From the IMG/VR virus record IMGVR_UViG_3300020473_000115, positions 1 to 25,480 of that record: a DNA stretch of 25,480 nt, one strand, 5' to 3'. The notes under the pieces are model-generated. The model made no database searches and had not been told where the DNA came from. It saw nothing but the letters and a program-made list of their open reading frames with translations. The translations under genes and the position numbers were made by a program. The first letter of the stretch is position 1. Each line of letters begins with the position of its first letter. Positions 23,302-25,208 of the stretch are shown here, piece by piece. This DNA is from a virus.

Positions 23302-24000
23302 TTACTCCTTGCAAAAATAAGCGTGAGAGATACCGATAATTTCGCTCTCCCAGTGGATGCCTTCATAATCTGCCAGCCATTTGCGGGCTGTTTTATCATC
23401 CTTTTTGAAACCAGCAGCCGCCATTACATTTGTTTTATTCGCCCCCGGGTGTTGACGAAGGTACTGGACAACGTTTTGTATGAACTGGTGCTTCTTATGC
23501 TCGAAGTATTTATTGCTGGGTGACTTTCTTGTGCTGGCCTTCTTAGTGTGCGACAGCTGCTGTTCTAACAACTGGGCTTTGTCGCGGTAGAGCTGCAACA
23601 ACTCGCCTTGCAAGTCTTGATTGGTAGCCTGTAATGCTTGTACTGCACTGCTGTCGTACTGACTGCTTTGTAATGTATCGGCCATTTGATTGAACGCATT
23701 GATGTACGCTTCTTTTATGGCGGCGGCTTGTTTGCCTGTAAAGCCCATCACCAAGAACATGAAACCGTCTTTAGTGACATTATACATAGGCAGCTTACGA
23801 CCAGTTGTATCGGTGAATTCACTCAGCTCAAAATTGAGCGCAGTAAAATAGCTAGAGCATTCGATTGATCTAATGGCACGCAAAACGTTGCGATGCTCTT
23901 TTTCAAACACTTCTGCAATGCGCGTTGAAGGAGTATAGAGTTGATTCTCTTTGACAGAGATGTAGTGGCGCAAGTCCACGTCAGGGAGTTGATTGACCAT
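23302..24000 (-). CDS. Rha-family phage regulatory protein
   Basis: A 232-aa protein. Residues about 13-105 fit the Rha domain: 'LYTPSTRIAEVFEKEHRNVLRAIRSI', 'FTALNFELSEFTDTTGRKLPMYNVTKDGFMFLVMGFTGKQAAAIKEAYINAFNQM'. A coiled coil (112-152) and a basic linker follow, then a C-terminal module (168-232, 'AAGFKKDDKTARKWLADYEG') that is clearly homologous to the end of the AAA ATPase upstream. Rha proteins interfere with growth of some phages and often sit in antirepressor positions. Shine-Dalgarno AGGAG is 6 bases from the ATG, and the bases CACATAG overlapping it are complementary to part of the structured leader. It is probably controlled by the candidate C4-like RNA. Confidence 0.88.
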   Translation of the reverse strand: MVNQLPDVDLRHYISVKENQLYTPSTRIAEVFEKEHRNVLRAIRSIECSSYFTALNFELSEFTDTTGRKLPMYNVTKDGFMFLVMGFTGKQAAAIKEAYINAFNQMADTLQSSQYDSSAVQALQATNQDLQGELLQLYRDKAQLLEQQLSHTKKASTRKSPSNKYFEHKKHQFIQNVVQYLRQHPGANKTNVMAAAGFKKDDKTARKWLADYEGIHWESEIIGISHAYFCKE

Positions 24001-24023
24001 AATGGTCTCCTATGTGATTGTAG

Positions 24024-24074
24024 TTAACGTCTACCAGTTAGTAGCTGGTAGCCGGGTGTCAACTGAAGCCACAT
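24024..24074 (-). CDS. Leader peptide candidate upstream of Rha
   Basis: A 16-codon frame (MWLQLTPGYQLLTGRR) with GGAG 4 bases before its ATG ends 24 bases before the Rha start. Its start codon lies inside the segment complementary to 24204-24218. In P1-type immunity the antisense C4 RNA blocks a small frame whose translation is coupled to the antirepressor, and this frame is in the equivalent place. A similar peptide end occurs, as I recall, in Ash/Icd-like proteins. Translation is unproven. Confidence 0.35.
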   Translation of the reverse strand: MWLQLTPGYQLLTGRR

Positions 24075-24253
24075 AGAGCTCCGGGCCTATTTCCCTTGCG
24101 GGTCTTGTATTAACGCCTCTCCACCCGGCCATTGAAAATGGACGGATCTATGCCTAACTTACAGGCATAAAAAGGCCGCAAGGCTTTCGGGTGCGGTTGT
24201 CCGCTATGTGGTATCAGTGCGGCAACCTTAATCCCGTGCGTGCGGCGTGTCAA
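24031..24253 (-). ncRNA. Candidate C4-type antisense RNA and its target leader
   Basis: The leader between the ATPase and Rha genes holds several paired elements. Bases 24204-24218 (plus strand ctatgtgg, ta, tcagt) are complementary to 24062-24076 at 13 of 15 positions. Bases 24122-24129 are a perfect 8-base complement of 24051-24058. Local hairpins lie at 24149-24169 (TATGCCT/AGGCATA) and 24031-24051 (CTACCAG/CTGGTAG). A consensus TTGACA -35 sits at 24253-24248. The upstream half could be released as an antisense RNA that pairs around the leader peptide start and stops Rha expression, as C4 RNA does for antirepressors in P1/P7. Exact ends are unknown. Confidence 0.45.
24110..24253 (-). other. 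Ash-like reading frame within the structured leader
   Basis: A 47-codon frame from TTG 24253 (AAGGA just upstream) to TAA 24110 encodes a segment with 'PHSGQPHPKAL' and 'LGIDPSIFNG', which recall the phage Ash family found in P4/P1-like immunity regions. The typical continuation ('LIQDPQGK', then 'MWLQLTPGY') is present but in other frames after stops. So this is either a decayed ash gene or conserved RNA that happens to translate this way. Family match is from memory. Confidence 0.35.
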
Positions 24254-24317
24254 TGTTTCCTTATGCAAATGATTGGGTATTTGTGCAAAACGTGTAGAAG
24301 GTCTACAACAGCTACAA

Positions 24318-25208
24318 CTACAACAATTGGTAAAATATGCGGGTGTGGCGTTTAGAGCTTTTCCAGTAAATACCGTCGTATTTTTCTAGTCGAGCGCGCG
24401 CGGTTTTATCATCTTTAGCATATCCAGCGGCGTTAAGCAGGTCGCCTTTTCCCACTTGGCCTTCTCGAACTAGTACATGCTTAACTTGGTTTACGAACTC
24501 AAGGTCTTGCTCTGAGGCTTGCGCTTCAATTAAATCTACTTCTTCTAGGTTTAGCGTATTCGGGTCGATATCAAATGCCTTATCGACGATAGCAGCTCGC
24601 TCTTTTCTTACTTCAAGAATTACACCTACGCCTTCAGCAAGCTCACGCTTCTTAAGCTGATACATATTGTCTAGGCTATTTCTAATTGCATTGCTGCCCT
24701 GGTAATTGCGCCCGTCTTTATTGCTGTGACCGAGTATAAGAATGGTACCGCCTGCTTCTCTAATATCTTTTAGCAGGTTCATTACCAGTCCGATTTTGGC
24801 TTCGTTGTTTACATCGGCGAAGTCTCGAAGACTGTCTACAAAGAAGATCATGTTTTCAAATTGATTAGCAGTCGCGTTCTCTGCCAACGTTCTTAATAGT
24901 TCGAATGGGGGCAGGGGGCTTTTACTGCGTTGCACATAGTGCAAGTTCGGGTGTGGAGCGATAAGCAGCTCGTGCACCTTGCGTTCCTTTAATACACTTA
25001 GTGGGTTGTCAAAATCCAAGTAGAACACTTGTTTCATTCGAGGGGCACAGTATTTTGCCAGCGCAAACGCTAACCAGCTTTTGCCGTTGCCGCCATCGGC
25101 ATACACCATGGTCATCATGCGCTTAGTGATGAAGCCTTCAATAACGAAATCTATCTTTTGATTAAAATCAGCTTCACAGAGGCTTGCTTGTGTGAGTATT
25201 TGGAGCAT
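24318..25208 (-). CDS. RepA-like AAA ATPase
   Basis: A 296-aa RecA-fold ATPase. Walker A is 'YADGGNGKSWLA' (GGNGKS at 39-44), Walker B 'MIFFVDSLRDF' (FFVD at 122-125), and 'ILILGHSNKDG' (157-166) fits the sensor strand of RepA/AAA_25 proteins. Related proteins are hexameric replicative helicases of plasmids such as RSF1010 or phage replication ATPases, so a role in DNA replication is likely. The C-terminal 60 residues (236-296) form a separate module shared with Rha ('NAAGYAKDDKTARARLEKYDG'). It is the last gene before the structured leader. The start at 25208 has AAGG about 10 bases upstream. Confidence 0.82.
   Translation of the reverse strand: MLQILTQASLCEADFNQKIDFVIEGFITKRMMTMVYADGGNGKSWLAFALAKYCAPRMKQVFYLDFDNPLSVLKERKVHELLIAPHPNLHYVQRSKSPLPPFELLRTLAENATANQFENMIFFVDSLRDFADVNNEAKIGLVMNLLKDIREAGGTILILGHSNKDGRNYQGSNAIRNSLDNMYQLKKRELAEGVGVILEVRKERAAIVDKAFDIDPNTLNLEEVDLIEAQASEQDLEFVNQVKHVLVREGQVGKGDLLNAAGYAKDDKTARARLEKYDGIYWKSSKRHTRIFYQLL

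Follow-up and report, generated by a model that had tools for sequence, protein, structure and literature searches.

A candidate antisense RNA switch of the sRNA-Xcc1 family in the leader of a phage rha gene

Results

The rha leader and its RNA

We analysed a stretch of viral DNA of 25,480 nucleotides (positions 1-25,480 of the IMG/VR virus record IMGVR_UViG_3300020473_000115), hereafter called the window. By PHROGs, its positions 1-23000 hold a structural module with terminase large subunit, portal, minor head protein, head maturation protease and tape measure protein. The leader studied here lies on the minus strand and precedes rha, whose product also matches several PHROGs named anti-repressor. 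The assignment of an antirepressor-type gene to this leader in a first-pass annotation of the window is thus borne out by the family matches and the gene context. Rha and the AAA protein encoded upstream of it (24318-25208) have a C-terminal stretch in common (AAGFKKDDKTARKWLADYEGIHW and AAGYAKDDKTARARLEKYDGIYW, respectively), and both match phrog_6357. The features of the leader are collected in Table 1.

Table 1. Features of the rha leader, in window positions.
Feature	Position	Strand	Basis
Predicted sigma-70 promoter (-35 TTGACA, 24253-24248; 17-nt spacer; -10 TAAGGT, 24230-24225)	24225..24253	-	conserved arrangement
Upstream target b2-a2, ACUGAUACCACAUAG	24204..24218	-	complementary to a' and b'; covaries
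Candidate antiterminator GCGG-ACAA-CCGC	24193..24204	-	same join in relatives; folding probabilities
Candidate intrinsic terminator CCGC...GCGGCC-UUUUU	24169..24196	-	hairpin and U-run conserved in relatives
Putative antisense RNA, sRNA-Xcc1 (RF02221)	24042..24130	-	65.9 bits, gathering score 53
Closing stem, 5' strand (pairs with 24058-24050)	24122..24130	-	Rfam alignment and folding
Antisense box a', CUAUGUGG, hairpin loop	24069..24076	-	covariation with targets
Antisense box b', CAGUUGAC, between hairpin and closing stem	24058..24065	-	locus-swap test, folding
Spacer hairpin UACCAG-CUACUAA-CUGGUA, between sRNA and target	24032..24050	-	folding
Downstream target box b, GUUAACUA	24021..24028	-	predicted full-leader fold: paired with b'
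Downstream target box a, CACAUAGGAG, over the Shine-Dalgarno	24007..24016	-	full-leader fold: paired with a'
rha, encoding Rha (Phage_pRha, antirepressor-type), regulated gene	23302..24000	-	PF09669, E=1.4e-29; PHROG 518, Rha-like

The complementary segments pointed out by the first-pass annotation were all found in the minus strand, and by locus swaps among the 170 hairpins described below, such complementarity exceeds chance. ACTGATACCACATAG (24218-24204) is complementary to CTATGTGGCTTCAGT (24076-24062) at 13/15 positions and GCCGGGTG (24129-24122) to CACCCGGC (24058-24051) at 8/8, while CACATAG (24016-24010), which runs into GGAG, is 7/7 complementary to CTATGTG. The latter can therefore choose between partners, as proposed, being complementary both to the upstream box and to the CACATAG at the Shine-Dalgarno.

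The roles originally given to these segments had to be exchanged. sRNA-Xcc1 (RF02221) is the sole Rfam family in the window and scores above its gathering threshold there. In the Rfam alignment, 24130-24122 and 24058-24050 form the closing stem, and CUAUGUG is a loop segment of the second hairpin, so that the presumed downstream target is the antisense loop. The antisense RNA would thus be 24130-24042, and the upstream segment 24218-24204, previously taken for an antisense element, becomes one of its two targets. The second segment pair keeps its full complementarity, but as part of the closing stem rather than as box and target, according to both the Rfam alignment and folding. A closing-stem helix of at least 7 pairs is present in 96.5% of 201 relatives, compared to 59% after loci were swapped; we relied on locus swapping and not on pair counting since a MAFFT alignment of 51 diverse RNAs moves the closing stem between subgroups. 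C4 (RF01695), c4-a1b1 (RF03163) and isrK (RF01394) gave no match up to E=10 within window positions 23500-25000 and were rejected as names for the element. C4 RNA is processed at its 5' end by RNase P at a GGW site; the putative RNA of the window begins with GGCC. Window-like relatives also conserve another hairpin beyond the U-run, AUGCC...GGCAU (24147-24169, minus strand).

The first-pass annotation had also described a 16-codon ATG frame with its own GGAG, envisaged as a small frame coupled to rha and blocked by antisense RNA from the upstream segments. The frame exists in the window, yet it finds no support as a gene: an ATG occurs at the a' site in only 4/18 window-like leaders, where it opens frames of 2, 2, 12 and 16 codons. 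We thus regard the ATG as a by-product of the a' sequence of the window phage, with no icd-like coupled frame, and a leader peptide was rejected. Although complementarities and frame are indeed present in the window phage, this version retains next to no probability and is already refuted in its details by the relatives, as the frame is not conserved, one segment pair makes up the sRNA's closing stem, and the upstream region is laid out like c4-a1b1, the known C4 target found upstream of C4 in P1, P27 and P4. An Ash-like protein, suggested for the frame at 24110-24268, was likewise rejected, as no Pfam or PHROG family matched and the alignment contains single-base length differences within the span.

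Folding of the full leader (-79.7 kcal/mol, z -3.8) closes a':a and b':b over the rha Shine-Dalgarno, the downstream target b-a as a whole covering 24028-24007. With all boxes in one transcript, this fold would also suit a leader acting in cis only, in which the loop pairs intramolecularly with the Shine-Dalgarno or the upstream box and no free antisense RNA arises. We consider this unlikely. The closing stem, which makes the module self-contained, is conserved, and P1, with the same layout, acts via a processed trans-acting RNA (PMC5320573, PMC8546580). Furthermore, sRNA-Xcc1 of Xanthomonas was cloned, and Northern blots and end mapping showed it to be a discrete 88-nt RNA (PMC2996969). RNA-seq in EHEC EDL933 gave an abundant sRNA-Xcc1 signal, whose ribosome coverage (0.02) lies far below the limit of 0.197 applied to non-coding RNA (PMC5331693, NC_002655 coordinates). 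In the EDL933 record, a phage antirepressor gene closely follows an sRNA-Xcc1 element; this is presumably the locus of that study, although coordinates differ by about 2.6 kb between assemblies.

Coordinated change of loop and targets

Covariation among homologues, named beforehand as a test of the proposed pairing, is present. With blastn, the same leader was found at 77% identity in Stx phages, where antirepressor genes follow it; Vibrio phage VHML has a part of this leader. The upstream box, loop and Shine-Dalgarno segment read CCACATAG, CTATGTGG and CACATAGGAG in the window, CTTCAAAG, CTTTGAAG and CTTCAAAGGAG in P27, and CAAATAAG, CTTATTTG and CAAATAAGGAG in P32; hence, the three segments covary between the window and the Stx phages.

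A pattern scan with the RNA core yielded at least 120 stretches in IMG/VR and at least 119 in genomes. The matches listed contain 170 distinct hairpins, and loops and leaders swapped between different loci served as control. Among these 170, a' matched the start-codon-proximal target over at least 7 nt in 58.2% (5.7% when swapped) and the upstream target in 76.5% (9.6%), while b' matched the downstream region in 36.5% (9.7%) and the upstream region in 66.5% (13.7%). Complementarity of loop and targets is far above chance. Every target is ordered b then a, as fits a'-b' pairing, and the downstream target ends a median of 9 nt before the next ATG or GTG (IQR 8-10, n=107), so it covers the ribosome-binding site.

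Three relatives of the window phage (L011, L056 and L077) are 93-99% identical to it over the aligned stretches. In L077, each of the three boxes carries one changed base (CACATAG to CACAAAG twice, CTATGTG to CTTTGTG), and its leader differs from that of the window at only few other positions. In L056, all three boxes are different yet complementary to each other again, the rest of the leader being nearly identical to the window. In a matrix of duplex energies, cognate pairs averaged -18.5 kcal/mol compared to -12.0 kcal/mol; the cognate pairing was best in only 7/12 rows because boxes of near relatives overlap, and duplex energy alone is thus no clean proof of specificity.

Promoter and attenuator

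Strict consensus scans for promoters and terminators returned nothing at the thresholds used and did not call the promoter, which is therefore argued from conservation: window-like relatives keep TTGACA-17/18-TAAGRT or CATACT, followed by 6 nt and ACT. The predicted transcript start, A24218, is the first base of b2.

At the other end of this target in the window, a2 and GCGG have one base in common, the final one of a2 and the first G of GCGG. An a2 adjoining GCGG-N-CCGC-N-GCGG-U-run was found in 78 leaders, sharing that base in 67/78, and the arrangement appeared in 22/1078 control trials with an a' from another locus. A T-run follows a2 in 128/151 leaders. When 82 leaders were folded, median probabilities of antiterminator and terminator were 0.80 and 0.07 in the free state and 0.055 and 0.80 with a2/b2 held unpaired; the way the leaders were selected accounts in part for the alternative pairing, but not for the exact a2 join. 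In the window, blocking the first G of GCGG alone left both near balance (antiterminator 0.37, terminator 0.39), and the switch became clear only with two bases covered (0.02 and 0.89); in addition, the unbound leader can fold a second hairpin, AAAGCC/GGCCUUU. The C4 leader of P27 showed no antiterminator in the same calculation. As the window's own switch is less clean, we grade attenuation at the upstream site as a plausible, predicted second action, less secure than the block of translation.

The same upstream site could also be used for positive control, as in IsrK: a short 5' RNA consisting of b2-a2 and the terminator might act as a decoy for the antisense segment, free the Shine-Dalgarno and turn rha on. 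This is a possibility we hold only tentatively. IsrK activates anrP translation in trans (PMC4825925) and the Rfam isrK model overlaps the equivalent upstream site at the C4 loci of P4 and P27, but the upstream part of the window leader lacks an isrK covariance-model match (up to E=10). Such a decoy is compatible with attenuation, since decoy and attenuator can be one RNA.

Other sRNA-Xcc1 loci

Genes downstream of sRNA-Xcc1 relatives are mainly antirepressor-type. Pfam matches of 150 downstream proteins, each of which may match several families, comprised Bro-N (45), P22_AR_C (20), AntA (17), KilA-N (16), Phage_pRha (14), P22_AR_N, ORF6N and ORF6C (8 each) and SymE (3); a cassette of symE and sRNA-Xcc1 has been described in integrons (PMC12444791). 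Escherichia phage PhiR5_2 carries two tandem elements (L006:300-388 and L006:837-922) that differ in their boxes, and each precedes an antirepressor gene of its own.

Xanthomonadaceae-type copies deviate from the window. Among the 31 such hairpins in the matches listed, the upstream site (at least 7 nt) is kept in 31/31 and the T-run in 30/31, but a start-codon-proximal match occurs in only 3/31. Blocking the adjacent gene is hence not the role of every member, and copies without this target must act otherwise. Loci of this kind include L129, L138 and L188, and several of them then encode related proteins with a YFLPEDSQ.RL motif, outside the antirepressor-type families. One might take these copies to mean that trans regulation of host genes is the main role of the sRNA and that its position beside antirepressor genes is incidental, the more so as the title of a work cited in PMC12444791 (reference 82) calls the Xanthomonas copy trans-acting and virulence-regulated. 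We judge this very improbable, given that most other members are complementary, locus by locus, to the ribosome-binding site of the adjacent gene.

Discussion

Building on the RNA family, the two targets, the covariation of three boxes, their position at the ribosome-binding site and the gene context, all read from sequence, we infer that the rha leader is an antisense RNA switch, in which sRNA-Xcc1, free or in cis, blocks translation of rha and probably also cuts leader transcription short (probability roughly 0.83). The promoter at about 24250 would give a leader transcript for rha, the middle of which would fold into the sRNA-Xcc1 RNA. By analogy, excision or termination may release this segment as an RNA of about 89 nt. 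Either the released RNA, possibly acting in trans, or the same segment in cis would pair through a' and b' with b-a over the rha Shine-Dalgarno, and antisense block of rha translation is the likely mechanism. The antirepressor-type protein would thus be kept off in the lysogen as well as in a superinfecting phage whose boxes are the same, which is the presumed role in immunity. At the 5' end of the transcript, a'/b' could bind b2-a2 as well, and such pairing would probably disfavour the GCGG:CCGC hairpin and favour the CCGC:GCGG-U5 terminator, by which transcription of the leader may be shortened too.

Since loop and two targets covary in about 170 relatives among the matches listed, sRNA-Xcc1 looks like a widespread phage immunity switch working like P1 C4 RNA. 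Going further, the whole family may at its root be an antirepressor immunity RNA of phages, with a scaffold parallel to C4/P4-CI and a double action (loop on the ribosome-binding site, antiterminator-to-terminator change at the 5' end). Boxes would then set the heteroimmunity types of near-identical phages, and integron cassettes of Xanthomonads would be a domesticated copy without the antirepressor target. This wider proposal seems to us slightly better than an even bet. A full-text literature search for Xcc1 together with antirepressor found no paper linking them within its coverage, outside which many subscription papers fall, and Rfam assigns sRNA-Xcc1 to no clan. The reading would give a phage function to a family so far held as an orphan sRNA in Rfam and as an integron RNA of plant pathogens in the literature. 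It places a candidate RNA switch before the antirepressor genes of many phages (among them Stx phages) and prophages, and an 8-nt box would predict which phages share immunity. For the P4/P1 class, it also puts forward a concrete antiterminator/terminator model, testable with simple reporters.

Among known systems, the X. campestris sRNA-Xcc1 belongs to the same family by Rfam score, but is described as a virulence-regulated integron-cassette RNA, and Xanthomonadaceae-type copies keep upstream target and terminator while mostly missing the start-codon-proximal target of the window. IsrK/STnc1160/anrP of Gifsy-1 resembles the window in its order of a short terminated upstream RNA, a second stable RNA and an antirepressor gene (PMC4825925); it differs in that its isrK model has no match up to E=10 around the window element, and its reported effect is activation through orf45 coupling. 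In P4, the CI RNA likewise lies between upstream and downstream complementary sites, seqA and seqC (PMC4825925), which we confirmed in the P4 sequence (GTGAGAA and TTCACAGG). Unlike the window RNA, CI matches the C4 model (74.9 bits), and its outcome is premature termination of replication genes instead of antirepressor control.

The C4 model matches P1, P27 and P4, with complementary sites on both sides of the RNA in all three (P1: TTGACAG and GTTAGTG upstream, TTGACAG and GTTAGTGA downstream; P27: TTGGCGT and GAAAAAGG). Rfam names the upstream C4 site c4-a1b1, 'a1, b1 targets of C4'. Stx phage P27 has both a C4 and an sRNA-Xcc1 system before different genes (L002:122-211 and L247:1501-1586), a pair of RNA switches that share their layout but not their scaffold. 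A close parallel to the window is C4 of P1/P7: both have antisense boxes a' and b', a target pair upstream and another over the downstream ribosome-binding site (as has P27 C4), a closed three-stem fold of similar length (87-position models), a terminator after the upstream target and an antirepressor operon, the latter judged in the window by Rha and the antirepressor-type domains dominating the 150 relatives. The scaffolds are different: RF01695 has no match in the window and RF02221 none in P1, the second target pair at 24218-24204 is present but not matched by RF03163, and sRNA-Xcc1 has its own conserved core, AAUACAANACCCGNAAGGGRAAUA. Furthermore, in the window it is the Shine-Dalgarno of the antirepressor gene itself that forms the downstream target, and a conserved small frame between RNA and gene, such as icd in P1, is lacking. 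Of the P1/P4-like switch originally proposed, the antisense-box logic stands while membership of the Rfam family does not: the window element is C4-type by architecture and outside the C4 family by model score.
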